The position numbers and the translations under genes are program-made. A DNA stretch of 64,000 bases, taken from Marchantia polymorpha subsp. ruderalis (taxonomy: Eukaryota; Streptophyta; Marchantiopsida; Marchantiales; Marchantiaceae). The stretch lies in contig AP031358.1 of NCBI GenBank assembly GCA_037833965.1, positions 17,058,001-17,122,000 of the forward strand, written 5' to 3'. Positions 16,702 through 64,000 of the stretch are shown piece by piece. The notes below the pieces were generated by a model. The model was not told the DNA's origin. It did not search any database and saw only the letters and a program-made list of their open reading frames with translations. Numbering within the stretch: position 1 is the first letter of the stretch; each line of letters begins with the position of its first letter.

Positions 16702-17400
16702 CTACACGCCTGCACGGAACCACGTTACACTACACTCCGCGGAACCTGTACTACGTCTCCTGCGCGGCCGACTGCCGCGCACTAACTCCCTACCCTGCCA
16801 CTCTTCCGCTCGACTGCGCAGTCCCAACCGCTGCAACGCCGCGGACACCTCCCCCTCGAGGGCGGACATGGTATCCTGTGCCTTCGACAGAAAGGCCTCG
16901 AGCTTCTTCGCTACCTTCCGCCGACTCCTACTGTCGCCTGACAACAACCCGGCTGCGCGCAATTCAAACTCACGCAGTGTGAGTTTCTCCTGCGCCTTTA
17001 CTTCCCAGTGGGCGTAGCCCTTGAGACAGTGGGCGACTCGCCTCGCCGTCTCCACCTTCGTGCGATCCGCCTCCTTCCTGCGATCCTCTTCAATTATCAC
17101 TAATTGCGATTCGGCTTCAGCACGTTGCGCTCTCAATTCGCCACACTCTGACTGCAACCTGCGGATTAACTCTTCATCCGCCTGCCGTGCGAGCTGACAT
17201 TGTTCCAACAACCTCGTCTGTCGCACGAGCTCCTCTGACAAAATCCGATTCTGGGCCTGCTCAGAGTTGAGTGCTTCCTTGACCTTCACCTGCTCCTTGG
17301 TGAGCTCGCCCAGTTTTTCATCCTTCATCTTCTCGGTGTGCTTGTAGAACTTCTGATTAAGCTTGTACTGTCCCCACAAGCACTCATGCTTCTCCTTCAA
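16702..17400 (-). CDS. U3-encoded coiled-coil protein, short version (3' LTR)
   Basis: Open from 17400 to the stop at 16702; the first ATG is at 17328, giving about 208 residues. It is the C-terminal part of the large U3 frame seen in long LTRs: a heptad-rich Glu/Gln/Arg/Leu coiled coil (EELVRQTRLLEQ, LQSECGELRAQRAEAESQL), the GYAHWE motif, an SRSRRKVAKKL basic stretch and an Arg-rich tail ending FRAGV. The N-terminal domain and linker are not present in this element. Its sense is that of gag-pol. Function and expression are unknown; an upstream promoter is not evident, and the genomic RNA would carry it at its 3' end. Confidence 0.55.
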   Translation of the reverse strand: MKEKHECLWGQYKLNQKFYKHTEKMKDEKLGELTKEQVKVKEALNSEQAQNRILSEELVRQTRLLEQCQLARQADEELIRRLQSECGELRAQRAEAESQLVIIEEDRRKEADRTKVETARRVAHCLKGYAHWEVKAQEKLTLREFELRAAGLLSGDSRSRRKVAKKLEAFLSKAQDTMSALEGEVSAALQRLGLRSRAEEWQGRELVRGSRPRRRRSTGSAECSVTWFRAGV

Positions 17401-17404
17401 TCAA

Positions 17405-18719
17405 CAAGAAATCTCCTGTGCGACGACGTCGAGAATGTTCCGCAGCCAGCAGATGAATGCGCGCAGCGCGCACAAGAGATTGGAATCGCGAATTCAAGAA
17501 TGGGACGTTCTCCGCCGCCCGGTCGAAGGTCATGGTCGGCTCTTGGTCGTGAAGAACGTCTCACTTGATGGCCGCGCCGGCTGTACGCTGGAACGGTCTT
17601 CGCTCTCACGCGCGGCTTCACGCTCCGCCGTCGTCGATTAAACTCTCACGCTCGAATTGGCGGATTTGAACTCCGCGAGCGTGTCGCCCTGCGGACATGG
17701 GGGCGTAGCGCCGAAGGCGAGTTTTCCGCCTTGCGCGGTACACTTGTTCGTACCGCCCCTCGGCCAATCTCCCTCTGCCTTGACGCGTGTGTCCGCATGT
17801 CGGACAAAAATTCAACTCCTGCCTGTGCGCAGGCAGGAGCCTCGGCGGATTTTCCGCCGGCGCGGAACTTGAACATCCTCCTGTGCACAGGCGTTCGCCT
17901 GTGCGCAGGCGAATTCCGTCCGCGGCGGTGCGCTGGCGCGGAAGGCGTTGACCGTGGTCAGCCGTCTCCGTCCAGTCTGTCCGTTCCTTGTCTCTCCGTC
18001 GGCGCTTCCGCCGCCGCAACTCCGTCCGTCCAAGAGCGCATCCACCCGTGCCGTCCGCATGGTCCGTACCGATTGGATTACTCTGGCGGCTCTTCCGACG
18101 TACGCGGCGCTGCGCTGGCGCGGGAGGCGCCGTACACTTTCTACCTCACAAGGCGCACTTCTAGGGCCCAAGGCGGATTTCCCGCCGACGCCGAAGTGCC
18201 TGTGCACAGGCGAACGCCTTCGTCCGCGCATAGGACAAAACTTGAATTCCCCTTCCGCGTAGGCGGAATTCGCGCCGGTGGCGAACTCCTTCCGCCGTAG
18301 GCGACCGCCTCCGTTTCTTCCAGTAGCGATAACTCCCTAAGTCCTCGTCCGTTCCAAGCGTTCTTGGGCTCGTTGGAATCAGTGCGTCGAGCTCTTTCCA
18401 ACGGAATCCTAACTTGGTCAAGGCGCCCGAGGGTTGACCTAATTATGGAGGGTTTCCCTACAGCCGCGGACGCAACCTCCGAAGGCGGGTTTTGCGCCTT
18501 GCGCCGTAGAGATCCTAACTGCAGAGCTCGCAGGGAGGGTGGTGCCTGTCCTTACTGCGGCACCCCAAATCCCAGATTCTACAAGATCCCTTGAGAATCC
18601 CCGCGATCTTCCGGATTCACTCTGTTTTGATGTACCGAAGGCTATTTACAATGCTGCCAGGGTACAGTTTTCCAAAAATGTTTTAATTTCCTCAAAATTG
18701 CCAAAAGTGGGGTACCACA
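17405..18719 (-). other. Gene-free U3 leader, 3' LTR of the complete element
   Basis: About 1.3 kb of CpG-rich sequence with cgcctgtgcacaggcg and similar palindromes and the conserved LTR start. Long frames exist on both strands, but they overlap each other and have no conserved start or family match, so they are not called. Confidence 0.6.
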
Positions 18720-21588: not shown

Positions 21589-21591
21589 AGT

Positions 21592-21600
21592 TAATTGCTA
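21592..21600 (-). promoter_or_regulatory. gag-pol read-through site, UAG CAA UUA
   Basis: gag and pol are in the same phase and separated only by an amber codon followed by CAA UUA. This nine-base context is identical to the tobacco mosaic virus replicase leaky stop and fits the CARYYA read-through consensus. Amber read-through between gag and pol is the known strategy of gammaretroviruses. I infer that this element makes Gag in excess and Gag-Pol by occasional read-through. Confidence 0.75.
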
Positions 21601-24429
21601 TTCGTCTTCCGGCTGAATAGCTTCCGGCTCTTCTTCTTCTCCCACCGAACAGCAGGCAACGAATCCCACGAAGTAATCGGATTCGGTACCACTGGAATCC
21701 GATTGCGCGGTCGACTCACTGTCCTCGCCCGATGTGTAACCTGCACTTGTCGATGGGGTCTCTCCTTCGTGTCTGACCCTATTCCAGGGCACCGTAATGG
21801 TTTTGGTAGGTTCCGAAGGATGGGGAAACTTAAGGCGATGCCTGCGCCAATCACATCTGACTTGTGCGCCATATAGCCATGGTCGCCCGAGCAGGACGTC
21901 ATAGCCCTGCTTCATCATCGGTTGAAGGATGATATACGTCAACCGAAATTCCGCACCCCCGATGATTGTCTTGACATTGCGCAGCATACCTGCAGGCATT
22001 CTCCGTGTCTGATCCGCTAATCTCAACACACGCTTCGAGGGTTCGTATTGACTGAACCCCAAGGCTCTCGCTGTATCCTCCGTCATTATGTTGACTCCTG
22101 ATCCAGAGTCGATTGGCACTCTGCGTACACAACACCCTGCTATTTCCACATCGATCTCTGGTGGCCCTTGGTCTTCGCTCTCCACTTGATATACTTGAGA
22201 GGTTGTGGATGCGCGCGGCTTCCGCGGATGCCGTAGCGAAAGCATCAACATTCTCCGATACGTCTTATTGTCCTCCAAGAGCTGCTTGAACGTGATGTTC
22301 ACTTTTCGACTCCCGAGATCTTCAACCAAGTCATAGTGGGTGCGTTGGGTCGCCGGGGTCGGCGACGCTCTGCGAGGTTCCACGGTGGCTGCTAACTTCG
22401 CCCCAAGGGAGGATGTCAAGTCTGGCCGCGGTGGGTCCTTTTGAGTGCGGATCGCTTCCTTCAACAGGTTGGCTACCTCGTTGCGGATATCCGGAGCATA
22501 GTCCCGTTTCAGTAGGCGCACTGGCTCGTCCTCGACTGCTGTCTGGGGGCGCACTGCTGGTGCCTCTCGCGTAGCCGAAGACTTCCGAGCAGGTCGCAAG
22601 TCGGACTTGCTGGATGTCTTCTCCTTTCCTTTTCCCGTCCGGTCGTCGGTTCTCCGTTCGTGCTTGCGAGTGTCACGCTCTTGCTCCTTCGATTTCTTGG
22701 AACTACGAGTTTCGACCCGTGCGCACATAACCTCTTCAGCCGGCCATTCTTCGTCTTCGCCATCCCCGTCTGAACCTACTTCGACCTGGTTAACTTGCAC
22801 GTCTTCCTTGGCAGGAGTGTTCACAAATCGTACCGCTGGCCGAGGGACTGGTGGCTGATCACACTCTGGCGCGGTATGCCCGATCTTTTTGCAATTACTA
22901 CATGTCGGAGCATAATCGTTTCGCCTTTTTGGATGGGGACACTGCGGTGAGAAGTGCCCAACTTCCCCGCAATTATAACAAGCTCGCGGTGGCGGTGGGT
23001 CAAACGTCCCTGGAGGTGCTCTCCGCCTCACGGGTACCGTAGTGGCCCGATCCACCGGAATATATCGTGGGACTTGCATTGCTGAAACTGCAGGAGGGGT
23101 AGGAACCGACTGGACGGCGTAGGCTGTCTCTTCGCTCGCCTCTCCATAGTACTGAGGGTGCTCTCCATAGTACGGTTGCGCCCACTCTACTGCGTTGACT
23201 GGATATGACGGACGGGTGGTAAGGCACTCGGTGTTTGCATGTCCCACCGCCCCGCACGTAGTACACCATAAGTTCGCTCGCACTCTCCCGGGTGATTTTC
23301 GGCGATCATGCCCGCCTACCACTTGAACCTTGAGATCGGCGAAGTCCTTCACAAGGGTCTCCATCTTCGAAGCTATGTCTCCCGGCGCTCTGTCCGTAGT
23401 CACTCGTCGGATGCCCTTTTTCTTCGCTGACCCATGCTTCTTCCTCTTCTTCTCCTCCTCCGACGATGAGGTTTCCTCTTCTTCGGATGAGGAACGGTTC
23501 TCGTCCGAAGACGATTCCTCCGATGACGGAGTTGTACCTCTACGTCGTCTTCGCCCTCCCTTTGGTTTTCGCTCCTTCGACTCCCGTCTCTCTCTCCCTC
23601 TTCGGTTGAGAGTGGAAGTTTCGAAGGCTTCTGCCGATGCAATCACATCCTCAATAGTGTCGCACTTGCTGCGTCGGCAAAAAGTCTCCATCTCCCGAGT
23701 TAAACCGGTCACGTACCAATCCACAGCTTGTTGTACCGAGAAAGGGGACCCTGGTCCTGTTTTCGGTATTCTGTCAAGGAGGTCCAGAAATCTCTCAGTG
23801 TAGTCACGCAGACTCTCCTTCTTCTCCCGCTGCAAATTACGTAACTTTGTCAAAACCCGGCTGTCGTAGCCGAGCTCGCGAAAGCGGCGAAGGAACTTCT
23901 CCTTCAGCTGGGCCCATGTTGTCAACCCCGTCGGATCGATGCTCTCGTGATTGTACCAACTCCTCGCTTTCTTCCGCAGAAGGCTTGGAAAGATCCTTAG
24001 TCGGTCGTCGTCTGCGATCTCGCGATTGGCAATAGACACCGACTCGAACAACTTGATGTATGAATCTGCATCGTCGTCATCCCCACTCCCTTTGTACTTC
24101 GGGTAGGAATGTTTAGTAATCGGCTGAGGTAGCCGCACATTGGCTTGTCCGTCCGCCATCGGTGTGTCTGTCGACGGTTCTCGGGCGGTCGGTTCTACTT
24201 CACTAGGCGGGTCCGTGCAAGGAATATCTAGTAGAACTGTAAGCACCAAGTTTGGTTCCGAGTCGCCGGGGGTAGGTTCCCCAAGGATGTCGGCCGAACT
24301 AGGCTTAGATACTCTTTTTGGTGTTTTCTTGTTTTGACGCCGTGTCTCTTCCACGGCCTTCTCCGAATCTCGTCGGAACTTGCGGACAGCTCTAGCACTT
24401 AGGTTGCTCCCGCTAGCCCCAGTCGACAT
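21598..24429 (-). CDS. gag and protease (complete element)
   Basis: 943 codons from the ATG at 24429. A disordered N-terminus is followed by the retrotransposon Gag core (about 110-275, with ARSWYN and LKEKFLRRFRELG), a Ser/Glu/Lys-rich stretch (285-345), and three CCHC zinc knuckles at 389-402, 484-497 and 510-523 (each C-x2-C-x3-GH-x4-C), which bind the RNA. A retropepsin-like aspartic protease follows, with DSGSGVN near residue 774 and the LLGRPWL motif about 75 residues on. The tail is acidic. It looks whole. The frame ends at the amber codon discussed for the read-through site. Three knuckles are more than the one or two usual in plant gypsy Gag. Confidence 0.93.
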   Translation of the reverse strand: MSTGASGSNLSARAVRKFRRDSEKAVEETRRQNKKTPKRVSKPSSADILGEPTPGDSEPNLVLTVLLDIPCTDPPSEVEPTAREPSTDTPMADGQANVRLPQPITKHSYPKYKGSGDDDDADSYIKLFESVSIANREIADDDRLRIFPSLLRKKARSWYNHESIDPTGLTTWAQLKEKFLRRFRELGYDSRVLTKLRNLQREKKESLRDYTERFLDLLDRIPKTGPGSPFSVQQAVDWYVTGLTREMETFCRRSKCDTIEDVIASAEAFETSTLNRRGRERRESKERKPKGGRRRRRGTTPSSEESSSDENRSSSEEEETSSSEEEKKRKKHGSAKKKGIRRVTTDRAPGDIASKMETLVKDFADLKVQVVGGHDRRKSPGRVRANLWCTTCGAVGHANTECLTTRPSYPVNAVEWAQPYYGEHPQYYGEASEETAYAVQSVPTPPAVSAMQVPRYIPVDRATTVPVRRRAPPGTFDPPPPRACYNCGEVGHFSPQCPHPKRRNDYAPTCSNCKKIGHTAPECDQPPVPRPAVRFVNTPAKEDVQVNQVEVGSDGDGEDEEWPAEEVMCARVETRSSKKSKEQERDTRKHERRTDDRTGKGKEKTSSKSDLRPARKSSATREAPAVRPQTAVEDEPVRLLKRDYAPDIRNEVANLLKEAIRTQKDPPRPDLTSSLGAKLAATVEPRRASPTPATQRTHYDLVEDLGSRKVNITFKQLLEDNKTYRRMLMLSLRHPRKPRASTTSQVYQVESEDQGPPEIDVEIAGCCVRRVPIDSGSGVNIMTEDTARALGFSQYEPSKRVLRLADQTRRMPAGMLRNVKTIIGGAEFRLTYIILQPMMKQGYDVLLGRPWLYGAQVRCDWRRHRLKFPHPSEPTKTITVPWNRVRHEGETPSTSAGYTSGEDSESTAQSDSSGTESDYFVGFVACCSVGEEEEPEAIQPEDE

Positions 24430-24493: not shown

Positions 24494-25474
24494 AAAAGAA
24501 GTTGTCGGCTTCTTATGTAATAACCCACTAAAGGCTAAAACTGCAATATAGTGGTAGAAAGGTCGAACCCACAGGGACAGAGGAACACACAGGGTACAAA
24601 GTGTCACGTTTTAACAGACTATTGAGGAGTTTGAATTCTCAGGCAACTGTCACTCCCAGAAATACTGCAAGTGTCCACTCGGAGCGCACTCGGAGGTCGC
24701 ACAGTGCAGCGTAACACACACACACACACCTGAAACTACAGAAACACAACCTAGAGATCCGTTAGGACCTCTACTTCAAGATTTCAGGGGGAAAGTCTCT
24801 CGCGAGCACACTCGGCAAAGCTTCGGGCAGTGACTTCCAACTCCGGCTTTTACAACACTTCCACTAGCTTGCTGCTAGTGTAGGAAACCCGGTTTGGACT
24901 GCCTACTTCGGATCGAAGTCACTCCTACGCGGTGAACAACACTCTCAACTCACAAAACGCGCAGAGAACACAGGTCCGCACTGAAGGTCTCACTGTGAAA
25001 CATTCCAGTAACACAACAACAGTCTATTGAAGAGTTTGAATTCTCAGGCACTTGTCATTCCCAGAAATACTACAGGGGTTACCCTCAAGGCACCTGCTGC
25101 AGCGTAACCTGAATTTACAACCAAGGCTTACACGAAGTAGCAAAACTTCACTTTGGCATTCAGGGGAAAAATCCCAAGGAGTACAATCAGAAAGAAACAC
25201 TCGAAGGTGTAGGGGCGAAACTGTTCAAGTATCTAACTAGTCACTGGCTCTGAGCATCGGCAGTCACCCGCAGGTGCAGATCCGAACTACTCAAGTCTCT
25301 AACCAATGTACTAGCTCTGAACATTCGGCCGAAGGCCTTCAGCTACAAAATGCGGAACGCTAAGTTGTAACTCCTCGTGCGTGGTGACAGAACTCAAGGA
25401 CACAAACACGCAAAGGAAATGGGTTCCTGATCTGCACTTCTGATGGGAAAGAACCCCAGGCAAAACGCCTGGAA

Positions 25475-25484
25475 CTATTTTATA
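25475..25484 (-). promoter_or_regulatory. TATA box, 5' LTR of the complete element (genomic promoter)
   Basis: TATAAAATAG on the minus strand. In this LTR it would start the genomic RNA, leaving about 0.95 kb of R-U5 plus 86 bases of leader before gag. Confidence 0.65.
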
Positions 25485-25520
25485 CCTTCTAAGTCCTACC
25501 TAGCACTACACTGCACTACG

Positions 25521-26219
25521 CTACACGCCTGCACGGAACCACGTTACACTACACTCCGCGGAACCTGTACTACGTCTCCTGCGCGGCCGACTGCCGCGCA
25601 CTAACTCCCTACCCTGCCACTCTTCCGCTCGACTGCGCAGTCCCAACCGCTGCAACGCCGCGGACACCTCCCCCTCGAGGGCGGACATGGTATCCTGTGC
25701 CTTCGACAGAAAGGCCTCGAGCTTCTTCGCTACCTTCCGCCGACTCCTACTGTCGCCTGACAACAACCCGGCTGCGCGCAATTCAAACTCACGCAGTGTG
25801 AGTTTCTCCTGCGCCTTTACTTCCCAGTGGGCGTAGCCCTTGAGACAGTGGGCGACTCGCCTCGCCGTCTCCACCTTCGTGCGATCCGCCTCCTTCCTGC
25901 GATCCTCTTCAATTATCACTAATTGCGATTCGGCTTCAGCACGTTGCGCTCTCAATTCGCCACACTCTGACTGCAACCTGCGGATTAACTCTTCATCCGC
26001 CTGCCGTGCGAGCTGACATTGTTCCAACAACCTCGTCTGTCGCACGAGCTCCTCTGACAAAATCCGATTCTGGGCCTGCTCAGAGTTGAGTGCTTCCTTG
26101 ACCTTCACCTGCTCCTTGGTGAGCTCGCCCAGTTTTTCATCCTTCATCTTCTCGGTGTGCTTGTAGAACTTCTGATTAAGCTTGTACTGTCCCCACAAGC
26201 ACTCATGCTTCTCCTTCAA
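25521..26219 (-). CDS. U3-encoded coiled-coil protein, short version (5' LTR)
   Basis: Identical to the frame in the 3' LTR (first ATG here at 26147, about 208 residues): heptad-rich coiled coil, GYAHWE motif, basic SRSRRK stretch and Arg-rich tail. In the 5' LTR it lies upstream of the genomic TATA box, so it would not be in the genomic RNA made from this LTR. Only a promoter further upstream, in U3 or in flanking DNA, could transcribe this copy. Confidence 0.5.
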   Translation of the reverse strand: MKEKHECLWGQYKLNQKFYKHTEKMKDEKLGELTKEQVKVKEALNSEQAQNRILSEELVRQTRLLEQCQLARQADEELIRRLQSECGELRAQRAEAESQLVIIEEDRRKEADRTKVETARRVAHCLKGYAHWEVKAQEKLTLREFELRAAGLLSGDSRSRRKVAKKLEAFLSKAQDTMSALEGEVSAALQRLGLRSRAEEWQGRELVRGSRPRRRRSTGSAECSVTWFRAGV

Positions 26220-27538
26220 TCAACAAGAAATCTCCTGTGCGACGACGTCGAGAATGTTCCGCAGCCAGCAGATGAATGCGCGCAGCGCGCACAAGAGATT
26301 GGAATCGCGAATTCAAGAATGGGACGTTCTCCGCCGCCCGGTCGAAGGTCATGGTCGGCTCTTGGTCGTGAAGAACGTCTCACTTGATGGCCGCGCCGGC
26401 TGTACGCTGGAACGGTCTTCGCTCTCACGCGCGGCTTCACGCTCCGCCGTCGTCGATTAAACTCTCACGCTCGAATTGGCGGATTTGAACTCCGCGAGCG
26501 TGTCGCCCTGCGGACATGGGGGCGTAGCGCCGAAGGCGAGTTTTCCGCCTTGCGCGGTACACTTGTTCGTACCGCCCCTCGGCCAATCTCCCTCTGCCTT
26601 GACGCGTGTGTCCGCATGTCGGACAAAAATTCAACTCCTGCCTGTGCGCAGGCAGGAGCCTCGGCGGATTTTCCGCCGGCGCGGAACTTGAACATCCTCC
26701 TGTGCACAGGCGTTCGCCTGTGCGCAGGCGAATTCCGTCCGCGGCGGTGCGCTGGCGCGGAAGGCGTTGACCGTGGTCAGCCGTCTCCGTCCAGTCTGTC
26801 CGTTCCTTGTCTCTCCGTCGGCGCTTCCGCCGCCGCAACTCCGTCCGTCCAAGAGCGCATCCACCCGTGCCGTCCGCATGGTCCGTACCGATTGGATTAC
26901 TCTGGCGGCTCTTCCGACGTACGCGGCGCTGCGCTGGCGCGGGAGGCGCCGTACACTTTCTACCTCACAAGGCGCACTTCTAGGGCCCAAGGCGGATTTC
27001 CCGCCGACGCCGAAGTGCCTGTGCACAGGCGAACGCCTTCGTCCGCGCATAGGACAAAACTTGAATTCCCCTTCCGCGTAGGCGGAATTCGCGCCGGTGG
27101 CGAACTCCTTCCGCCGTAGGCGACCGCCTCCGTTTCTTCCAGTAGCGATAACTCCCTAAGTCCTCGTCCGTTCCAAGCGTTCTTGGGCTCGTTGGAATCA
27201 GTGCGTCGAGCTCTTTCCAACGGAATCCTAACTTGGTCAAGGCGCCCGAGGGTTGACCTAATTATGGAGGGTTTCCCTACAGCCGCGGACGCAACCTCCG
27301 AAGGCGGGTTTTGCGCCTTGCGCCGTAGAGATCCTAACTGCAGAGCTCGCAGGGAGGGTGGTGCCTGTCCTTACTGCGGCACCCCAAATCCCAGATTCTA
27401 CAAGATCCCTTGAGAATCCCCGCGATCTTCCGGATTCACTCTGTTTTGATGTACCGAAGGCTATTTACAATGCTGCCAGGGTACAGTTTTCCAAAAATGT
27501 TTTAATTTCCTCAAAATTGCCAAAAGTGGGGTACCACA

Positions 27539-41427: not shown

Positions 41428-42352
41428 TGTAATAACCCACCAAAGGCTAAAACTGCAGTATGGTGGTAAAAAGATCGAACCCACAGGGACAGAGGCAACA
41501 CACAGAGTAAAAAGTGTCACGTTTAACAGACTTTTGTAGAGTTTGAATTCTCAAGCGACTGTCACTCCCAGAAATACTGCAATGCTCGACTCGGAGGCCA
41601 CTCGGAGGATGCTCGACTCGGAGGTCACTCGGAGGATGCTTGGAGGATGCACAGTGCAGCGTAGGTCACTCAACACACACACACACACCTGAAACTGGAA
41701 AAAGCACAACTCTGAGGTCGGTCAGGACCTCCGCTTCGGATTTCAGGGGGAAAGTGTCTCAAAAGTTCACTCAGAGGTTCTGCAGGTAGTGACTCCCACT
41801 CCGGCTTTTACTGCCCTTCCGCCAGGAACTAGCGTAGGGAACTCGGACTGGACTTCCCACTTCGGAACGAAGCCCCTTCATACGCCGTGGACGTCACCCT
41901 CGACTCACACCAACCGCAGGGGGTACAGGCCCGACTGAGGACTTAACTGAGACACAATCCAGTAACACACACACACAACCTGAATTGCAAACCAAGGCTT
42001 ACACGAAGTAATAAAACTTCACTTTGGCATTCAGGGGAAACTTCCCGTAGGAGTACAATCAGGATATGTCACTCGAAGGAGTAAGGGGGAACTGTTCAAG
42101 TCTCTAACTCGCAGCCGGCTCTGAGCATCAGAAATCACCCGCAGGTGCAGATCCGCACTACTCAAGTCTCTAACCGGGTGCTAGCTCTGAACATTCAGCC
42201 GAAGGCCTTCAACTACAACATACAGTAACTTCGCTATGCTGCAGCTTCTCTACGTGGTGCCAGGACCAAAATGCACAAACACGCCAAGAAAGTGAGTTCA
42301 TGATCTGCACTTCCGAAACTGGAAGAGTTCCAAGGCAAAACGCCTTGATCTA

Positions 42353-42359
42353 CTTTATA
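42353..42359 (-). promoter_or_regulatory. LTR TATA box (solo LTR I)
   Basis: TATAAAG on the minus strand, about 33 bases after the end of the U3 frame. Confidence 0.55.
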
Positions 42360-42391
42360 CCCTCAAAGGTCCTAACTAACACTACGCTATC

Positions 42392-44953
42392 CTATCTACT
42401 ACTCGCAACACCTACACGAAACCAAACTACGCTACTGCACTCTGCAGATCCGGTGCTGCGCCTCCTGCGCGCCGGACTGCCTCGCTCTCTATCTCTACCT
42501 TGCCAATCTTCGGACCGGCTGTGCAACCCCAGACGCCGGAGGGCTGCAGTCACTTCCGACTCCAAGTGCGCCATAGTGTCGCGCGCACCAGACAAGAAGG
42601 ATTCTAATTTCCTTGCTACTCGCCGCCGACTCCGACTATCACCCTCCGTCAATGCCGCCGCCCGAAGCTCGAACTCCTTGAGTGTGATCTTCTCTTGAGC
42701 TGCCACCTCCCAATGGGCGTATCCTTTTAGACAGTGAGTCACCCGCGTCGCCAACTCTTCGCGCGCCCGGCAGCTGCCTTCCACCTCTGCTAGCTGCATT
42801 TCCGCATCTGCGCGCTGCGCCCTCAAATCCGCGCACTCGGATTGCAAGTTGCGCAACAATTCCTCATCCTCCGTGCGTGTACTTTGACTTTCTTCTAAGG
42901 CGCGCTTCTGGCGCGCAAGCTCTTCTGCTAAGATGCGGTTTTGTCTCCGCTCTTCCTGCAATTCCGACTCGATCTTTGCCCGCATTAGCTCAGCATCCGC
43001 CTGGTTTTTCGTCGCCACATCCTCCCTCTACTGTTGCAAGGTTTGGTATAGCTTCTGCGTGACCGCCAGGTGCTGTCGGAGGGTAGCGTTCCTATCCTGC
43101 AATGTTTGGCACCTAGAGGCCCAAGTGGCCACCTTGCTCCTCGTCCTGCGCTTGACAGTCTCCACGTAAGACTGCGGTTTTCCGGTACCCGAGTACTTGG
43201 ATGTCTTGCGATCCAGATAGCGCAGGAGTGGAACTATCTGCTCGCAGAACACCCCTGTTGGCGTTTTCTGCACAGAGTCCGCTTCCTGCTCTTCCGAACT
43301 CGTCTCATCCTCCGTTTCGAGGATTTCAGTCGCCACCGAATCCCTTGGCGACTCCCTGGAACTGTGGCGCGCAGCAGCTTCCGCCGCGACTGCCGCTCCA
43401 CTCCCTGCTAAAATATCCAAGGCAGTGGGGGATCCCACTGCTTGAGCCCCTATTCCAGCTCGATCTTCGGTTTCCGAAGGGGTCGACGCCGCAGTGACTT
43501 TTGTCACCTTTGCACCGCCCGCTTCTGCTGCCTGCCCTTCCGGCGCGATCTGCGCGGAAGGTGTCTTCGCTGGAGGTGCGTCCGCCGAAGGCGTCCGCAC
43601 AATGGTCGCCGGCCCTGTCCGTCTCGCAGTCGGCGAATCTGGCCGACTCTCTGTTGACCGACTCGCAGTCGGCCGACTAGCAGGTGTCCGACTGGCAGTC
43701 GGATACACCCTGCGCGTCTTCACTCCACTTGGCCTGCTTGCTGGCGGCGTTTTCCCAGACGTGCCTTCCGCCGAAGACGACCCTCTAAGGGTTGTTGGCT
43801 CGTTAGCCAAACTTCCTTCTGCTTCCGGCCTGCTGTCCGGTTCAACGCGCCGCTCCGTCGGCCTTCCTTCCGTTTGTCGACCTTAAGTCGCCCGACTCGT
43901 AGTCGGCCGACTGTCAGTCCGTCTCTCTTCTTCCGAAGGCATTGGTGCCTTCTGCGCAGAGGTATTTGCCGACTTCCCCAGAATCTGCGCGATTATCTCC
44001 TCCTGCGTGGGCAGGATACTCCGCCGGACCGGAGTACGCCCGGTCTCCTCAGTACTAGTTGGCACTTTGCGTGCCCTCTGTTTCGGTCGGCTGTGGGGCT
44101 CGATGGTTGGCCGACTACGAGTCGGCGCAGCTGGCACTTCCGGCTGCCTGTCCTCAGGTCTCTCATCCCATTTCCGCTTTCGCGGAGCGCGCTCATTTCG
44201 ACGTTCTTCTACTGCTCTTGCTGGGGGCGGAGCCGGAGGCGGACTGGCAGGTGCCTCGTCCGGATCCGTGTCTACTTCGGCCTCCCGCGAGTATCTACCT
44301 GGATAGCTCCGGGTCAGCAGCGGAAACCGTGTCCGCTCTGAATTTGTCAAACATCCCATCGCCCGATAAAACACAATCAGGTAAGGCGAAAGATGATTGA
44401 GGGTTCCTCCTCTCTCTTCTTGCGCATGTTGGCGCGTCACCTTCCACAGGAGCCGTGCCCAATGCACTGGAGCTCCTGACAACACTAGCTCCACAAATCC
44501 TACTTGCCAACCATGCATGTAAGCGGTCTTGGTCGGCTGCAATATCTGCAGCAATGCAGTCGCGACATTTCTCCGCAATCGATCTTTGTAATCCCGTGTC
44601 CGGAAACCGTTCTTGGGATGCCTAGCAACTTTGAAAAGCTCATTGTAGGAGATTTCTTCCTCCTTGGACACCTTCACGCTATCGGCCTCGAAGAGGAGAT
44701 ACCCTTCCTCGCCGGCACACCTGCCCAACACCTGCGCCCAGTCACAAATGTCCCACCTCTCTGGATGTGGACGGAATCCGTGTGAGGGCTTGTGTCTCTC
44801 CTGCAGATACTCGCGCACCATCTCCGGACATGTCCAGTTCCATCCCCACAGGAGGAAATCGAGCTTCAGCCCTGTTAGCACATCTTGGAATGCGCGCAGA
44901 CCGATCTGCGGCACTCTAAGTGGAGACACTTGCAGCTGGGGGACCTTCGACAT
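42392..44953 (-). pseudogene. U3-encoded large protein (solo LTR I)
   Basis: Starts at the ATG of MSKVPQLQVS (44953) and ends GVASSR at 42392, the same ends as the uninterrupted copy in unit L. It contains all parts: N-terminal globular domain, linker with SRPTASR-type repeats, acidic segment, coiled coil, GYAHWEVAAQEK and Arg-rich tail. Broken, about two interruptions, otherwise nearly identical to 60634-63192, so the decay is recent. Confidence 0.8.
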
Positions 44954-46310
44954 TGCGTTTCCTGCACACACAGACGTATTCCCCTCCGCTCGCTCTCTCA
45001 CAATCGCCGCTGCGCGTCGGCCGCTCAAGCACTGACTGCTGTCACTCTCTCTTCTCTCGCGCTCAAGTTCGCTACTCGCAAATTCTCTCCAAGGTCTGTC
45101 AAGATCCTTGCGCAACTCGTCTCCGCACTCTCTCCTCTCACTGCAGGTCTCTCCGCCCTTGCGCGTAATCTTGGAAGTTGGAAATCGCAAAATCAAGAAT
45201 GAGAGAATGAGACTGGAGAGCAGTCTTTTCTTCTCCGAATTCAAGATCGTCCAACGTTCTTACTGGTTACAATTTACGCAGCCGGCTATACGGCCTAACG
45301 GTTCGCCCTTGCATGCTCGAATTCACGTCTCCGCACTGCGCGCATTCGCATGCGTGAATGTTGAATTCTCCCGCCGCCACCGTCTTCCGGACTCGAGTTC
45401 GCCGCAGTGTATGCGTCGGCTATGTTGTCTTTTCCTAACCCGACCATCACCGGAGGCGTGTCGCCGCTAGCTTGTTCCTTATCCGTCGGCGCCTTGCTGG
45501 AGGCGCACATCCAGTCGGCGCGAATTACGCCGGCGCGTATTCGTACCACTTGTTTTGTCCGTTCTGCCTCGTCTATTGCTGACGGCGCATATCCCGCCGG
45601 CGCAAATCATGCCAGCGCATCCGCCTATCAGCGCCACGTCGGAGGCGTACATCCGGCCGGCGCTTTTCTTCCGTTGCGCAGCCGCCAAAGGCGCTTCCGA
45701 CTCTGAGTTGATTTCCTCCATGAGCGCGTGATTCCGCCAAAGGCGCATCGCCGAAGGCGTACGGGAGTCCTTTCCGACTGTGAACCCTAGCGCGAACGGC
45801 GCATGTCCGGCTACGAGTTTTCCGATGCTCATAACTTCTTCGTCCCTGATCCATCTCCGACGCTCTTGGGCTCGTTAGGACGAGCGTCCCGAGCTCTTTC
45901 CAATGCAACTTCAACCAACTGGAACTACTGTGTATTCCGATCGTTATGAAGGTTTTCCTTTCCGCGCTAGCGGCGCATCGCCGAAGGCGCACTCATGGTC
46001 GGAAGCCGTCAGAGGTCCCTGCCGTTCTTCTGACGTCTTTAGCGAAATCTCCTCCGGAGGTGTCTGCGCCGGAAGCGTAGCTTCCTTAAACGCTGGAAGC
46101 GCGTGAGTAGAGACACCTCAGACAATGAGCTTTTGCCGAAGGCGCCGAAGACATTTGGTACATCCGACTTCGCGATTCTTCGTGACCTCGTGACGATCTC
46201 CTCAATCCACTCTATTTAACGTACCCTTTTCTAACTACAGACACTGCTTCGGTACTTGTTTTCTAAAATTGTTTAAATTCTGCAAAAAAAACAAAAAGTG
46301 TGTTACCACA

Positions 46311-47965: not shown

Positions 47966-50900
47966 ATGACCTTCGACCGGGAGACGGAGAGCGCCCCATT
48001 CTTGAATTCGCGATTCCATTCTCTAGTGCGAGCTGCGCGCGTCCATCTGCTAGCCGCTAAGCATTCTCGACATCGCCACACAGAGGATTTCTTGGTGATT
48101 GAGGGAGAAGTGAGTGCGCGTGATTTGGAATTGAGGGAGATTAGAGTTTGCCGAGGAAGAAAGGAGCTCGAGCGGAGCGGAAGGAGAATGAGCGAGCGGG
48201 CGAACTCCAAGAACGCAATGACGAGACTGGGCCGATTGCGGATGCTGCCGCTCCGACTACCACAGAACGGGCTGCGCGCTTTCGAGGAGCGCCTAATAGC
48301 AAGAAAGCTCGATTTCTTGCTATGGGGATGGAACTACATCTGTGTGGATATGGTGCGCGAGTGGCTAGAGCCACAGGGACCACCTTCGCGCGGATTGCGT
48401 CCGCATGTCGATCGGTGGACGGTCCAAGATTGGGCGCAGGCATTGGGGAGATGTGCCGGCATGCCAGGGCACCTCCTCTTCGATAGTGAGAGCGTCAAGG
48501 TGACCAAGCAGGAATAGGCGCAATTTGTGGAGCTGTTCAAGAAGGGGAAGTCTACCAAGAATGGGTACAAGACCCGCGATTACAAGGATCGATTCCGCCG
48601 GACTTTGTCTACGGCGCTGCTGCAATTACTGCAGCCACACCGCGCCTGCTACATCACATTGTGGCAGGTCTCTTTTGTGGAGTGCATCATCGAGGAAACT
48701 CCAATTCACTGGGCGAGCATCCTGCACAGGGTGATGCGACAGCACGCTTTTGAGGAGAAGGGGGGAACTCTAAATCATCTCTCTCCTTTCCTCATCAATT
48801 TTTATCGACAGCGGAATTGTTTGACAGCGGCGGAGCTTGCTCGTTTTCCGCCGTTGTCCGTCGACCATCCCGGGAGGTATGTGCGGGAGAATAAGGTCGA
48901 CACTGATGCAGAGGAGTCACCGACTTCTACTCCGTCAAGGCGGAGGGACGAGGGGAGAAATACTCCTGCAGCACGAGTGCCGCGGAAGCGGCGATGGAGA
49001 GAGGAGTCCGAAGAGGAGCAGCATCAAGAACCCACTGCTCCCATTCGACCGCGGCCGTTGTACGAATCGTACAGCCGGCCGAAGCAGAAGGCGCGCAGGC
49101 GTGTGTTACAAGCCAGCAGCGCGGACACGGCGACGATTGCGACGGAGAAAGGAAGTGCGTCGCCAGAGAAGAACGAGGGAGCGCCGACGTCCGCAGGAGC
49201 AACGGACCACGCTGCACCCTCGACGGACGAGAGGCCGCCTACGGGCCAAGGGCCTCCGGAGTTACCACGTGCGTGGCGGACAGGTGTTCCACCTGCGCAC
49301 AGGCGAGCCTCGACGGACGGGCGAGCCTCGACGGACAGACGACCACAAGCGGACGTGGACCTACGCCTACGCGTGGGAAGAAGCAGTCCGCCTGTGCACA
49401 GGCGCTCGCCTGTGCACAGGTCACCTCCACACGTGCCGCCTGTGCACAGGCAGGAATCACCCCCGTTCCAACGTAGGAAGGGGAAGGAGCCGGCGGAAGA
49501 TCCGCCTACGAGACACCGGCCTTCGGGGCCAGACCCTCCGGCGCACAACGCGCCGCGATTTGCGCCTTCGGCGCCAGGGCCTTCGGGCCGAGGAGATGCG
49601 AGCATGGAGCGTGAGGAGGCCGCACCATCGGCGGGTAATCCGCCGGTAGATGCGCCTTCGGCGGTAGGGCCTCAGGGCCAAGGGATATCGGGCGAGCGGC
49701 CCCCGGCTATGTCGCCTTTGGCGGTAGACGTCCGCGGCGCTGCGCCTGCGGCGGACAAGGCGCCGGCATTTGCGCCTGTGCACAGGCCAAGCACAGCCCC
49801 CGCGCAGGACCGATCAAGGGAGAAGCACCTGACGGAGGAGCGGATTGACTGTCCGCGGGACAAAATTTCGGTGCGCGATGCGCAATCAAACCCCGCGTAG
49901 ACACCCTCCGCTCGATCACCTTCGGCGGCGGACGTCGGCGGCGGAGAGGATACGGTAGAAGACCAACAAGCGGGCGACGGGGATGTAGCACGGGCACATT
50001 CGCCCACCGCCTTAGACATTTTGGCGAAGAGCAGCGAGGCTGCAGCGGTGCCTTCGCAGGCAGCACACGTCGACGACGTGCAGCCCCACTCGGGACAGTC
50101 GCCAACGCAATCAATGGCGACTGAAATTCTCCACTCGGATGATGACGACGGAGGCTCCACCGAAGAAATGTCGGGAGCGGGGGATACCGAGGAGGAGGAG
50201 GAGGAAATTGTTGGAGCGCCGGCGGCGGCGCTCTCTGAGCAGGTGATTCCGTTGCTCAGGTACTTGGATCGCAAAATCGATAAATACGCCGATCCACTTC
50301 ACCCGGGATCTTACATCGAATTAGTGCGCAGGCGGACTCGCACTAAAGTCCACACTAGCAAGCTACTAGCTAGGGTGGACCAGGAGTTGAAGGAATTGAA
50401 GGAGAGGCATGCCTGTTTATGGGGGCAGTACAACCTTGAGAGGAAATCGCACGCCCTCGACAGGATGCGGAAGGATAGAGTGGAAGAGCTCACCAGGGAT
50501 GTGTTGCAGACCACGCAGGATTTGATGTCTGAGAAAACTCAGAATCAGATTCTGTCAGAAGAGCTCGTGCGACAGACGCGTTTGTTGGCGGAGTGTCAGC
50601 TCGCACGGCAGGCGGATGAGGATTTAATCCGCAGGCTACAGTCAGAGTGTGGTGAATTGAGAGCGCAGCGTGCGGAGGCCGAATCGCAGTTAGTGGTAAT
50701 TGAAGAGGATCGCAGGCGAGAGGCAGATCGCACGAAGGAGGAGACGGCGAGGCGTGTCGCCCACTGTCTCAAGGGCTACGCCCATTGGGAAGTGGCGGCG
50801 CAGGAGAAACTCACACTGCGTGAGTTTGAACTTCGCGCAGCAGGGTTGGTGGCAGGCGACAGCAGGAGTCGGCGGAAGGTAGCGAAGAAGCTCGACGCTT

Positions 50901-51091
50901 TTCTGTCGAAGGCGCGGGATACCATGTCCACCCTCGAGTTAGAGGTGTCCGCGGCGTTGCAGCGGTTGGGACTGCGCAGTCGAGCGGAAGACTGGCAGGG
51001 TAGGGAGTTAGTGCGCGGCAGTCCGTCGCGCAGGAGACGTAGCACCGGTTCCGCGGAGTGTAGTGTAGCGTGGTTCCGTGCAGGCGTGTAG
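47966..51091 (+). pseudogene. U3-encoded large protein, subfamily II (solo LTR J)
   Basis: Starts MTFDRETES and ends FRAGV, over 1000 codons in length including a longer basic leader than subfamily I. The N-terminal globular domain, a Pro/Arg-rich linker with VHRR/PSA-type repeats, an acidic segment (EEMSGAGDTEEEEEE), LLRYLDRK, the coiled coil and the RRRRSTGSAEC tail are all present. Broken, about two interruptions. Its C-terminal part is closely similar to the short frame in the LTRs of the complete element, which ties the two together. Confidence 0.8.
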
Positions 51092-59098: not shown

Positions 59099-59677
59099 TG
59101 TAGTAACCCACCAAAGGCTAAAACTGCAATATAGCAACAAAAAGGTCGAATCCACATGGACAGAGTCAACACACAGAGTACTAAATGTAATGTTTTAATA
59201 AACTATTGAAGAGTTTGAATTCTCAGACGACTGTCACTCCCAGTATACTGCAAATGCTCAACTCTGAGGTCACTCGGAGGACGCACAGTGCAGCGTAGTT
59301 CACCCAACACACACCTGAAACTATAAAAGCACAACTCAGAGGTCGGTTAGGACCTCTACTTAAGATTAAGGGGAAAGTTTCTCACGAGTACCCTCAGAGG
59401 ATTTGCAGGTAGTGTTCCCCAACTCCGAATTGTTAACTCTAACTACTAGTGCAGAGCATCCGGGTTGGACTTCCTACTTCGGATGCGGTACCTTCGTCAA
59501 ACCGAAGTCACTCTCATGCGGTGAACAACACACTCAACTCACAAAACGCGTAGAGAATACAGAAATCCAAACTGAGGGAATATGTTGAGAAAAGATCCAG
59601 TGTCACAACTTAACAGTCTATTAACGAGTTTGAATTCTCAGGCACTAGTCATTCCCACAAATACTGCGGAGGCTACC
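59099..59677 (-). mobile_element. LTR unit K (subfamily III-like R-U5), left piece
   Basis: TGTAGTAACCCACCAAAGGC start, then R-U5 sequence closest to the older unit H (tagcaacaaaaaggtcgaatccacatgg). It breaks at 59677 where unit L begins; the rest would lie beyond the window. Confidence 0.8.
59673..59677. repeat. Presumed target-site duplication CTACC, left (unit L)
   Basis: Five bases before the TG end of unit L; the partner copy is outside the window. Confidence 0.5.
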
Positions 59678-60594
59678 TGTAATAACCCACCAAAGGCTAA
59701 AACTGCAATATGGTGGTAAAAAGATCGAACCCACAGGGACAGAGGCAACACACAGAGTAAAAAGTGTCACGTTTAACAGACTTTTGTAGAGTTTGAATTC
59801 TCAGGCAACTGTCACTCCCAGAAATACTGCAGTGCTCGACTCGGAGGCCACTCGGAGGATGCTCGACTCGGAGGATGCTCGGAGGATGCACAATGCAGCG
59901 TAGTCACTCAACACACACACACACACACACACCTGAAACTGGCAAAAGCACAACTCGGAGGTCGGTCAGGACCTACGCTTACGATTTCAGGGGGAAAGTA
60001 TCTCAAAAGTTCACTCAGAGGCTCTGCAGGTAGTGACTCCCACTCCGGCTTTTACAGCCCTTCCGCCAGGAACTAGCGTAGGGAACCCGGACTAGACTTC
60101 CCACTTCGGAACGAAGTCCCTCATACGCCGTGGACGTCACCCTCGACTCACACCAAGCGCATAGAGTACAGGCCCGACTGAGAACTCAACTGAGACACAA
60201 TCCAGTAACACACACACACAACCTGAATTGCAAACCAAGGCTTACACGAAGTAATAAAACTTCACTTTGGCATTTAGGGGAAACTTCCCGTAGGAGTACA
60301 ATCAGGATATGTCACTCGAAGGAGTAAGGGGGAACTGTTCAAGTCTCTAACTCGCAACCGGCTCTGAGCATCAGAAATCAACCGCAGGTGCAGATCCGCA
60401 CTACTCAAGTCTCTAACCGGGTACTAGCTCTAAACATTCAGCCGAAGGCCTTCAACTACAACATACGGTAACTTCGCTATGCTGTAGCTCCTCTACGTGG
60501 TGCCAGGACCAAGTGCACAAACACGTCAAGAAAGTGAGTTCCTGATCTGCACTTCCGAAACTGGAAGAGTCCCAAGGCAAAACGCCTTGAACTA

Positions 60595-60601
60595 CTTTAT
60601 A
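60595..60601 (-). promoter_or_regulatory. LTR TATA box (unit L)
   Basis: TATAAAG on the minus strand, 33 bases after the U3 frame. Confidence 0.6.
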
Positions 60602-60633
60602 CCCTCTAAGGTCCTAACTAACACTACGCTATC

Positions 60634-63192
60634 CTATCTGCTACTCGCAACACCTGCACGAAACCAAACTACGCTACTGCACTCTGCAGATCCAGTGCTG
60701 CGCCTCCTGCGCGCCGGACTGCCTCGCTCTCTTTCTCTACCTTGCCAATCTTCCGACCTGCGCAACCCCAGTCGCCGAAGGGCTGCAGTCACTTCCGACT
60801 CTAAGTGCGCCATAGTGTCACGCGCACCCGACAAGAAGGCTTCTAATTTCCTTGCTACTCGCCGCCGACTCCGACTGTCACCCTCCGTCAATGCCGCCGC
60901 CCGCAGCTCGAACTCCCTGAGTGTGATCTTCTCTTGAGCTGCCACCTCCCAATGGGCGTATCCTTTTAGACAGTGAGTCACCCGCGTCGCCAACTCTTCT
61001 CGCGTCCGGCAGCTGCCTTCCACCTCTGCTAGCTGCATTTCCGCATCTGCGCGCTGCGCCCTCAAATCCGCGCACTCGGATTGCAAGTTGCGCAACAACT
61101 CCTCATCCTCCTTGCGTGTACTTTGACTTTCTTCTAATGCGCGCTTCTGGCGCGCAAGCTCCTCTGTTAAGATGCGGTTTTGTCTCCGCTCTTCCTGCAA
61201 TTCCGACTCGATCTTTGCCCGCATTAGCTCGGCATCCGCCTGGTCTTTCGTCGCCGCATCCTCCCTCTGTTGTTGCAGGGTTTGGTATAGCCTCTGCGTG
61301 ATCGCCAGGTGCTGTCGGAGGGCAGTGTTCCAATCCTGCAATGTTTGGCACCTAGAGGCCCAAGTGGCCACCTTGCTCCTCGTCCTGCGCTTGAAAGTCT
61401 CCACGTAAGACTGCGGTTTTCCGGAACCCGAGTACTTGGATGTCTTGCGATCCAGATATCGCAGGAGTGGAACTATCTGCTCGCACAACACCCCTGTTGG
61501 CGTCTTCTGCACAGAGTCCGCTTCCTGCTCTTCCGAACTCGTCTCATCCTCCGTTTCGAGGATTTCAGTCGCCACCGAATCCCTTGGCGACTCCCTGGAA
61601 CTGTGGCGCGCGGCAGCTTCCGCCGCGACTGCCGCTCCACTCCCTGCTAAAATATCCAAGGCAGTGGGGGATCCCACTGCTTGAGCCCCTGTTCCGGCTC
61701 GATCTTCGGTTTCCGAAGGGGTCGACGCCGCAGTGACTTTTGTCACCTCTGCACCTCCCACTTCTGCTGCCTGCTCTTCTGGCGCGATCTGCGCAGAAGG
61801 TGTCTTCGCCGGAGGTGCGTCCGCCGAAGGCGCCCGCACAATGGTCGCCGGCCCTGTCCGTCTCGCAGTCGGCGAATCTAGCCGACTCTCTGTTGACCGA
61901 CTCGCAGTCGGCCGACTAGCAGTTGTCCGACTGGCAGTCGGATCTACCCTGCGCGTCTTCACTCCACTTGGCCTGCTTGCTGGCGGCGTTTTCCCAGAAG
62001 CGCCTTCCGCCGAAGACGACCCTCTAAGGGTTGTTGGCTCGTCAGCCAAACTCCCTTCTGCTTCCGGCCTGCTATCCGGTTCAACGCGCTGCTCAGTCGG
62101 CCTTCCTTCCGTTTGCCGACCTTCAGTCGCCCGACTCGCAGTCGGCCGACTGTCAGTCCGCCTGTCTTCTTCTGAAGGCATCGGTGCCTTCTGCGCAGAG
62201 GTGTTCGCCGACTTCCCCAGAATCTGCGCGATTATCTCCTCCTGCGTGGGCAGGATACTCCGCCGGACCGGAGTACGCCCGGTCTCCTCAGTGCTAGTTG
62301 GCACTTTGCGTGCCCTCTGTTTCGGCCAGCTATGAGGCTCGTTGGTTGGCCGACTCCGAGTCGGCGCAGCGGGAGCTTCCGGCTGCCTGTCCTCAGGTCT
62401 CTCATCCCATTTCCGCTTTCGCGGAGCGCGCTCACTTCGACGCTCTTCTGCTGCTCTTGCTGGAGGCGGAGCCGGAGTTGGACTGGCATGTGCCTCGTCC
62501 GGATCCGTGTCTACTTCGGCCTCCCGTAAGTATCTACCTGGATAACTCCGGGTCAGCAGCGGAAACCGTGTCCGCTCTGAATTTGTCAAACGTCCCATCG
62601 CTCGATAAAACACAATCAGGTAAGGCGAAAGATGATTGAGGGTCCCTCCTCTCTCTTCTTGCGCATGTTGGCGCGTCACCTTCCATAGGAGCCGTGCCCA
62701 ATGAACTGGAGCTCCTGACAACACTAGCTCCACAAATCCTACTTGCCAACCATGCATGTAAGCGGTCTTGGTCGGCTGCAATATCTGCAGCAATGCAGTC
62801 GCGACATTTCTCTGCAATCGATCTTTGTAATCCCGCGTCCGGAAACCGTTCTTGGGATGCCTGGCAACTTTGAAAAGATCATTGTAGGAGATTTCTTCCT
62901 CCTTGGACACCTTCACGCTATCGGCCTCGAAGAGGAGAAACCCTTCCTCGCCGGCACACCTGCCCAACACCTGCGCCCAGTCACAAATGTCCCACCTCTC
63001 TGGATGTGGGCGGAATCCGCGCGAGGGCTTGTGTCTCTCCTGCAGATACTCGCGCACCATCTCCGGACATGTCCAGTTCCATCCCCACATGAGGAAATCA
63101 AGTTTCAGCCTTGTTAGCACTTCTTGAAATGCGCGTAGACCGATCTGCGGCACTCTGAGTGGAGACACTCGTAGCTGGGGGACCTTCGACAT
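60634..63192 (-). CDS. U3-encoded large coiled-coil protein, uninterrupted (unit L)
   Basis: 852 codons from the ATG at 63192; the frame is open 29 codons further up, but only this ATG (MSKVPQ) is shared by the copies in B2 and I. Residues 1 to about 190 form a globular domain with LDFLMWGWNW, DWAQVLGRCAG, YKDRLQRNVATALLQILQP, VHWARLLWKVTRQH and LNHLSPYLIVFYR. About 190-505 is a Pro/Arg/Ser/Thr-rich linker with repeated SRPTASR motifs. 507-560 is acidic, 611-731 is a long coiled coil, GYAHWE is at about 744, and a basic Arg-rich tail follows (820-835). It looks whole. No protease, polymerase, transposase triad or envelope feature is visible. A nucleic-acid-binding or assembly role is only a guess. 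Confidence 0.75.
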   Translation of the reverse strand: MSKVPQLRVSPLRVPQIGLRAFQEVLTRLKLDFLMWGWNWTCPEMVREYLQERHKPSRGFRPHPERWDICDWAQVLGRCAGEEGFLLFEADSVKVSKEEEISYNDLFKVARHPKNGFRTRDYKDRLQRNVATALLQILQPTKTAYMHGWQVGFVELVLSGAPVHWARLLWKVTRQHAQEERGGTLNHLSPYLIVFYRAMGRLTNSERTRFPLLTRSYPGRYLREAEVDTDPDEAHASPTPAPPPARAAEERRSERAPRKRKWDERPEDRQPEAPAAPTRSRPTNEPHSWPKQRARKVPTSTEETGRTPVRRSILPTQEEIIAQILGKSANTSAQKAPMPSEEDRRTDSRPTASRATEGRQTEGRPTEQRVEPDSRPEAEGSLADEPTTLRGSSSAEGASGKTPPASRPSGVKTRRVDPTASRTTASRPTASRSTESRLDSPTARRTGPATIVRAPSADAPPAKTPSAQIAPEEQAAEVGGAEVTKVTAASTPSETEDRAGTGAQAVGSPTALDILAGSGAAVAAEAAARHSSRESPRDSVATEILETEDETSSEEQEADSVQKTPTGVLCEQIVPLLRYLDRKTSKYSGSGKPQSYVETFKRRTRSKVATWASRCQTLQDWNTALRQHLAITQRLYQTLQQQREDAATKDQADAELMRAKIESELQEERRQNRILTEELARQKRALEESQSTRKEDEELLRNLQSECADLRAQRADAEMQLAEVEGSCRTREELATRVTHCLKGYAHWEVAAQEKITLREFELRAAALTEGDSRSRRRVARKLEAFLSGARDTMAHLESEVTAALRRLGLRRSEDWQGRERERGSPARRRRSTGSAECSSVVWFRAGVASSR

Positions 63193-64000
63193 CTTTCTGG
63201 TTGTTCCTGCAGACACACAGACGTTCTCCCTTCCGCTCGTTCTCTCACAATCGCCACTGCGTGTCGGCCGCTCAAACACTGACCGAAATCGCTCTCTCTT
63301 GCGCGCTCAAGTTCGCTACTCGCAAATTCTCTGCAAGGTTTGTCAAGATCCTCGCGCAACTCGTCTCCGCACTCTCTCCTCTCACTGCAGGTCTCTCCAC
63401 CCTTGCGCGTAATCTTGGAAGCTGGAAAACTCACAATCAAGAATGAGAGAATGAGACTGGAAAGCAGTCTTTTCTTCTCCGAATTGAAGATCGTCCAACG
63501 TTCTTACTGGTTACAATTACGCAGCCGGCTATACGGCCTAACGGTTTTCCCTCGCATGCTCGAATTCACGTCTCCGCACTGCGCGCATTTGCATGCGTGA
63601 ATGTTGAATTCTCCCGCTGCCATCGTCTTCCGGACTCGTGTTTCGGCGTCGTCTTCCGGACTCGAGTTCGCCGCAGTGTATGCGTCGACTATGTTGTCTT
63701 TTCCTAACCTGACCATCGCCGGAAGCGTATCGCCGCTGGCGTATTCCTTCTCCGTCGACGCCTCGCTGGAGGCGCACATCAAGTCGGCGCGAATTACGCC
63801 GGCGCGTATTCGTACCACTGGTTTTGTCCGTTCTGCCCCGCCTATCGCCGACGGCGCATATCCCGCCGGCGCAAATCATGCCAGCGCACCCGCCTATCCG
63901 CGCCACGTCGGAGGCGTACATCCGGCCGGCGCTTCTCTTCCGTTGCGCAGCCGCCAAAGTCGCTTCCGCCTCTGAGTTGATCTCCTCCCATGAGCGCGTG
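63193..64000 (-). other. Gene-free U3 leader of unit L
   Basis: CpG-rich sequence matching 44954-45780 and 5700-6317/8787-8955. It lacks the nested unit B3, so it shows the empty target site near 63365. Frames here are not conserved in phase and are not called. Confidence 0.6.

Follow-up and report, generated by a model that had tools for sequence, protein, structure and literature searches.

A large, probably protein-coding accessory frame inside the long terminal repeats of a Marchantia Ty3/gypsy retrotransposon family

Several retroviral genes reach into the U3 (unique 3′) region of the long terminal repeat (LTR), namely sag of mouse mammary tumour virus (MMTV), lentiviral nef and foamy virus bet; plant LTRs are generally treated as non-coding. 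In the available parts of two reports (PMC7264820, PMC11963269), the additional open reading frames (ORFs) of plant LTR elements sit in the internal region. Those of the Tat/Retand group, such as gene23 of maize Grande, are described there as antisense, placed between pol and the 3′ LTR and encoding Transposase_28 (PF04195), with a nuclear location reported for the Grande protein. Here we describe an 852-codon frame within an LTR of a Ty3/gypsy family in a 64,000-nucleotide stretch of Marchantia polymorpha subsp. ruderalis (contig AP031358.1, C9:17058001-17122000, hereafter the window), which was compared with the 241.5-Mb genome in nine contigs. Sequence comparison makes it very probable that this is a genuine accessory protein gene of the family, selected, translated and lying wholly in U3. 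Its features are as follows.

60634..63192, minus strand: candidate U3 accessory frame, 852 codons plus stop, open from an ATG
59678..64584, minus strand: solo LTR carrying the frame, defined by its ends and target-site duplication (59678..64000 inside the window, last 584 bases outside)
59673..59677, no strand: target-site duplication GGTAG of the solo LTR, identical to its partner copy at 64585-64589 outside the window
60596..60601, minus strand: TATAAA, 33 nt past the stop codon of the frame (motif scan)
62488..63192, minus strand: N-terminal domain (first 235 codons), the best-aligning part between subfamilies (alignment)

The frame extends to 881 codons when an upstream GTG is counted as its start. 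The initial annotation, made from the letters of the window, had placed an uninterrupted frame inside an LTR unit, in the sense of gag-pol and upstream of the LTR TATA box, and all of this proved correct: the LTR has sharp termini of the TG...CA type (TGTGGTAACAC...GGTTATTACA), and at three loci with pol (L015, L021 and L024) the frame is on the pol strand, in the LTR that follows pol.

The likeness to MMTV sag, nef and bet is that of an accessory gene in U3, in gag-pol sense, copied to both ends by reverse transcription. The Marchantia frame differs from these genes in its plant host, its length (850-1045 codons across subfamilies), its position wholly within U3 and its lack of a transmembrane segment; the likeness to sag is one of position, a general Pfam scan having given no matches in a search not specifically aimed at a sag relation. 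With Tat/Retand elements, as far as the accessible parts of those accounts go, it shares a functionally uncharacterised additional protein that many copies retain, composed of an N-terminal domain and a coiled-coil-like part, but it lies in the LTR, in sense and without a PF04195 match. The env-like third ORFs of Athila and Bagy2 are likewise in sense and downstream of pol in the genomic RNA, but they have transmembrane segments and are located before the 3′ LTR (PMC7264820, in part). Bdelloid rotifer LTR elements also have extra ORFs and many solo LTRs, but their LTRs measure 159-551 bp and their ORF3, of enzymatic or env origin, is outside the LTR (PMC5408684, in part). A full-text search, thin on subscription journals and preprints, did not turn up any plant LTR described as housing a conserved gene (also PMC12786077, PMC9985172, PMC12885004 and PMC1560396, each in part). 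Accessory genes of LTR elements are known; the location in a plant LTR and the size appear to be new, as far as we are aware.

That the repeated units are LTRs, as the initial annotation proposed, was examined in 18 frame-bearing loci, selected as listed open for at least 827 codons, and in both window flanks. The resulting table of ends and target-site duplications comprises 19 units, from 16 fetched loci (L003 and L012 were left out) and three places in the window; two of the units have no 5′ end in view. Those with both ends visible have the same sharp termini as the window LTR and measure 4.82-4.94 kb, except for the interrupted window unit C, and 16 of these 17 have identical 5-bp flanks (one after a 1-base end shift), the sole exception being L015, the 3′ LTR of a complete element. 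The internal region starts with taag(a/g)agccgac... and ends in ttgaggaggggggca immediately before the 3′ LTR, with a polypurine tract (PPT)-like sequence abutting the 3′ LTR in every case read. The junction of this tract with the LTR start has 909 exact occurrences in the genome, compared with 0 for the pattern read backwards. A stretch near the 5′ LTR looks like a tRNA-Asp primer site and is a candidate primer-binding site. By coordinates, the LTR of L015, L021 and L024 begins 37 nt past the pol stop codon, with the frame on the same strand. The units are therefore LTRs, as 16 of the 17 have target-site duplications and further complete elements carry the frame in both LTRs.

Genome-wide lists of frames and pol hold the best-scoring copies, which favours intact ones. 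Three loci were picked regardless of the frame: L021 by pol and spacing, L023 by pol alone and L024 by pol spacing. In L021 the LTR measures 5394 bp and its open frame 1045 codons, 961 of them from an ATG aligned to that of the window frame; L024, of a third subfamily, carries 851 open codons in a 4864-bp LTR. In these two young subfamilies, with LTRs of 5.39 and 4.86 kb, the frame is open, in sense and between pol and the LTR TATA box. Among the best 142 of 8140 candidates scored for the L024 subfamily (none with a stop inside the 271 codons scored), 130 reach at least 851 open codons. Among the 142 are 51 same-strand pairs spaced 10.6-10.9 kb apart, the LTR spacing, 48 of them with both frames open; 25 pairs enclose a listed pol match, at a pol-to-frame offset of 2199-2286, and 23 of these have both frames open. 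For the L021 subfamily, an open stretch of at least 1040 codons is present in 108 of 136 scored frames, and both frames are open in 33 of 38 pairs, five of the 38 enclosing a listed pol match. When pol of the related complete element in the window was listed in the same way (best 132 of 3187 candidates), 98 of 132 matches were open for at least 946 codons, so the frames (108/136 and 130/142) are open about as often as pol in comparable best-match lists.

All frame pairs at LTR spacing stem from the two younger subfamilies; none was found among the listed frames of the window's own subfamily (X-type) nearest L015. In the latter, 107 of 142 scored N-terminal stretches lack a stop, and one complete element was seen, formed by L022 and L015 (LTR identity 98.3% over 3425 nt). 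Of its two frames, the 3′ copy is open and the 5′ copy ends early in an LTR interrupted by another insertion; the pol frame of the element is broken. An accessory gene duplicated at both ends by its LTR position had been suggested from the window, and the 23 complete elements that have two open frames flanking a listed pol agree with this. The same annotation regarded the frame copies as decayed, which holds within the window, but intact frames are common elsewhere in the two young subfamilies. What is observed directly is the frame's location and sense, its occurrence at both ends of complete elements and its survival in solo LTRs.

Codon comparisons revealed past purifying selection on the protein, as had been surmised from the motifs of its N-terminal domain. 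Between the window frame and L024, synonymous divergence (dS) was 0.351 and nonsynonymous divergence (dN) 0.076, giving a dN/dS ratio (omega) of 0.218 (bootstrap 0.171-0.277); three other copies gave 0.214-0.241 with L024, so that the ratio between subfamilies is 0.21-0.24 for four copies and not near 1. Shifting the frame by one or two bases raised omega to 0.99-1.51 (three pairs). Neutral simulations (200 runs per pair) had a mean NG86 omega of 0.72-0.74, lying below 1 because transitions dominate, with a lowest value of 0.50. Random placement of the observed number of substitutions left 8-11 stops per frame and a stop-free frame in 1 of 6000 simulations (2000 for each of three pairs). Gap runs against L024 were multiples of three in 17 of 17 cases within the frame and in 10 of 188 and 10 of 157 in the flanks; the copies in the stop-count and gap-phase comparisons had been picked as open. 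Copies C and E of the window, which were not picked for openness, have two in-frame stops each and stay in phase along 853 codons.

Over 105 pairs of 15 open copies, the median omega was 0.34 (range 0.19-0.72), with higher values in the closest pairs. Singleton codon differences were 100 nonsynonymous to 84 synonymous, compared with 24 to 59 for shared ones (Fisher p 1.2e-4), so that shared differences are far more synonymous than private ones. Such a pattern is expected of a gene that is under selection while its element is active and relaxed once a copy is dead. Against L021, the most distant subfamily, the proteins are about 50% identical and omega is 0.17-0.18 or undefined, a value not to be trusted since dS is saturated; the differences by codon position (328/262/488) favour coding. 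Between L015 and the window's complete element, pol is 88% identical (662 codons) and the gag end 64% (248 codons), again with saturated dS, indicating a higher rate of evolution in the U3 protein than in gag-pol.

The first 215 or so residues of the protein align between subfamilies, with M at the start column in 13 of 21 rows by eye. The middle part contains basic clusters and is enriched in P, S, T, R and A, and the C-terminal part includes a 232-residue proline-free run with a weak heptad pattern. In L024 (2504-2792), the middle of the frame contains degenerate 15-bp (5-residue) repeats within the coding frame. The usual transmembrane hydropathy limit is near 1.6, and the highest 19-residue mean was 1.14-1.22 in three frames; with no transmembrane segment, an env-like gene was ruled out. 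Hmmscan of 46 aligned members against Pfam found no recognised viral or retroelement domain, and a viral contig search gave no matches. PF20167 was likewise absent from the hmmscan results and from a genome search in which control genomes also gave none. Protein matches were Marchantia polymorpha hypothetical proteins in 15 of 15 cases in one search and 66 of 73 in another.

How such a gene would be expressed can be proposed from the LTR layout. TATAAA or TATATA occurs once in each of 16 X-type LTRs, 33 nt past the frame stop; the motif lies 34 nt past it in L024 and 37 nt in L021. Genomic RNA would then start just beyond the frame stop, leaving the 5′ copy upstream of the start and carrying the 3′ copy at its tail. 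Production of the protein might depend on a promoter of its own within the initial 1.3 kb of U3, or on splicing or reinitiation. Two stretches conserved between the L021 and L024 LTRs, the first 116 bp and a block near 320-560, could harbour such a promoter. Every integration would leave two gene copies, and LTR-LTR recombination would remove gag-pol yet retain one whole gene in the solo LTR.

A complete element in the window bears on the role of the protein. Its parts are:

15697..18719, minus strand: 3′ LTR, frame mostly deleted (LTR comparison)
24516..27538, minus strand: 5′ LTR, same sequence as the 3′ LTR (LTR comparison)
16702..17400, minus strand: 232-codon C-terminal frame remnant in the 3′ LTR (B1/B2 pair; translation)
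25521..26219, minus strand: 232-codon C-terminal frame remnant in the 5′ LTR (B1/B2 pair; translation)
21598..24429, minus strand: gag with protease (Pfam)
18757..21588, minus strand: pol, with reverse transcriptase, RNase H and integrase (Pfam)

This element (15697-27538) has two identical 3023-bp LTRs and ACTCT on both sides, and Pfam matches for gag, protease, reverse transcriptase, RNase H and integrase follow the Ty3/gypsy order. Its pol agrees at 99-100% identity with 131 other listed matches over the C-terminal 297 residues. It had been taken for a relative of the LTR unit, which is right, but its LTRs are shortened: as L021 has a 5394-bp LTR with an open frame, the B1 and B2 LTRs are internal-deletion forms of a 5.39-kb LTR. 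With up to three mismatches allowed, the deletion junction occurs at two places in the genome, both in LTRs of this element, and so says little about supply in trans. The gene, deleted in both LTRs of a recent element, is evidently not needed in cis. Since it is dispensable in this way and survives in solo LTRs, we tentatively suggest that the protein may be a nuclear factor acting in trans on how the family is expressed or silenced; its basic clusters are the one sequence feature bearing on a nuclear location. Bolder, and distinctly doubtful, is the idea that the LTR is a lasting selfish unit whose U3 gene, with its own promoter, encodes a trans-acting nuclear anti-silencing factor, solo LTRs being stand-alone gene copies that sustain complete elements.

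Several observations weigh against a selected accessory gene. The recent complete element of the window moved, or arose, with the frame deleted in both LTRs, and one of three LTRs picked by pol spacing regardless of the frame (L023) has a broken frame. The window copy itself is a solo LTR of an old, mostly broken subfamily; of 142 copies scored there, no more than 36 show a stop-free frame of 851 codons or longer. For the window frame there was no Pfam match better than E 0.27; no PDB relative emerged from sequence searches, which gave none or three weak matches (best E 0.21), and two AlphaFold models of the N-terminal domain, both mostly helical, were of low confidence (mean pLDDT 41.3 and 40.1). 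Frame dS against L024 (0.25-0.35 for the window copy, L015 and L010) is also 2.5-6.4 times the divergence of flanking LTR DNA, which is 0.04-0.14, uncorrected.

An origin compatible with the accessory-gene explanation, and one we consider a real though minority possibility, is that the frame started out between pol and the 3′ LTR as an ordinary third gene, an accessory ORF like those known from plant Tat/Retand elements, and was engulfed once a polypurine tract lay upstream of it; reverse transcription would then have copied it to both ends, with a function as in the Tat/Retand additional ORFs. Only 37 nt, including the PPT-like tract, separate the pol stop from the LTR, leaving nothing else where additional ORFs usually lie, and the combination of N-terminal domain and coiled-coil-like C-terminus resembles the reported make-up of Retand proteins (PMC11963269, in part). 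Retand ORFs, however, are antisense with Transposase_28, a domain matched by none of the 46 aligned members; a genome search for it gave three matches below the cut-off (best E 0.89), and no relative with the frame outside the LTR was seen in this genome, other species' genomes not having been searched. The frame was rejected as a Retand/Tat Transposase_28 (PF04195) ORF itself, being in sense, inside the LTR and without a match at E <= 5 in the 46 members. Capture of a host gene or fragment into the LTR long ago, carried since as a passenger, would fit the lack of any recognised viral or retroelement domain, and a single host paralogue could hide from lists of best copies (for example, the best 142 of 8116 candidates). 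We think it improbable, as none of the matched proteins (Marchantia hypothetical proteins in 15/15 and 66/73 cases) has a host-type name and constraint across subfamilies at 50% identity is unexpected of a passenger.

Still less credible is that no protein is made and that base composition, or conserved regulatory DNA or RNA, is what keeps the frame open. LTRs do hold regulatory sequence and the flanking LTR DNA is itself conserved, but conservation tracks codons (0.21-0.24 in frame against 0.99-1.51 in shifted frames), 8-11 stops would be expected where none occurs (in copies chosen as open), and L021 and L024, both picked by pol spacing, have 1045 and 851 open codons. Omega, the pattern of shared differences and the simulations together ruled out a chance frame or regulatory DNA. 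That the units are a separate mobile element with short inverted ends, captured at retrotransposon ends, seems barely conceivable. Most X-type copies do stand alone with target duplications, but solo LTRs account for single copies, whereas the units flank gag-pol with primer-binding-site- and PPT-like tracts right at their edges (909 junctions against 0), and the two units of the window's complete element are identical. A DNA transposon in place of an LTR was ruled out by the target-site duplications, the complete elements and the PPT-LTR junctions.

If the accessory-gene explanation is true, a selected gene of 850-1045 codons would account for the unusual LTR length of 4.9-5.4 kb, solo LTRs could be genes, and a liverwort model lineage would gain a tractable retrotransposon accessory factor. 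The 66 of 73 matches with Marchantia gene-model names would then also suggest that many Marchantia 'hypothetical proteins' may be LTR pieces.

The remaining frame copies in the window are damaged to varying extents, as initially annotated: C and E have two stops each, B1 and B2 are remnants and the rest are in pieces.

5130..12470, plus strand: solo LTR C, broken by an insertion at 6323-8781, with target-site duplication CTGAC (ends and flanks)
8956..11514, plus strand: frame copy of LTR C, two in-frame stops (translation, phase)
41428..46310, minus strand: solo LTR E, with target-site duplication GTGTT (ends and flanks)
42395..44953, minus strand: frame copy of LTR E, two in-frame stops (translation, phase)
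48218..51088, plus strand: broken frame copy of a more distant subfamily, in two overlapping pieces (frame matches)
3288..4451, plus strand: C-terminal section of a frame copy that a nested element of another gypsy family has split (frame matches)

The nested element (window 1-3290 and left flank L002:3439-8000) lies in this U3 frame copy near codon 466. Its 859-bp LTRs are 99.8% identical and lack a U3 frame, and its pol is 43% identical to that of the window's complete element. Within the insertion interrupting LTR C, a 15-bp unit is repeated in tandem about 25 times or more (7815-8386).

Elsewhere in the genome, complete elements occur in head-to-tail arrays sharing LTRs (C4:14582785-14627545, C6:28282550-28360642, C8:4153030-4174356 and others), with spacings of 11.16-11.21 kb and about 10.66 kb; among the listed pol matches, 18 of 19 same-strand neighbour spacings within 8-12 kb fall at 11.16-11.21 kb. 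The arrangement is suggestive of multiplication of LTR-internal-LTR units, either by recombination or at integration. On the small contig C1 (5.6 Mb), equal-score matches come in threes (2352395/2758762/3111948 and 2315780/2709213/3075333), which suggests large repeated blocks there.
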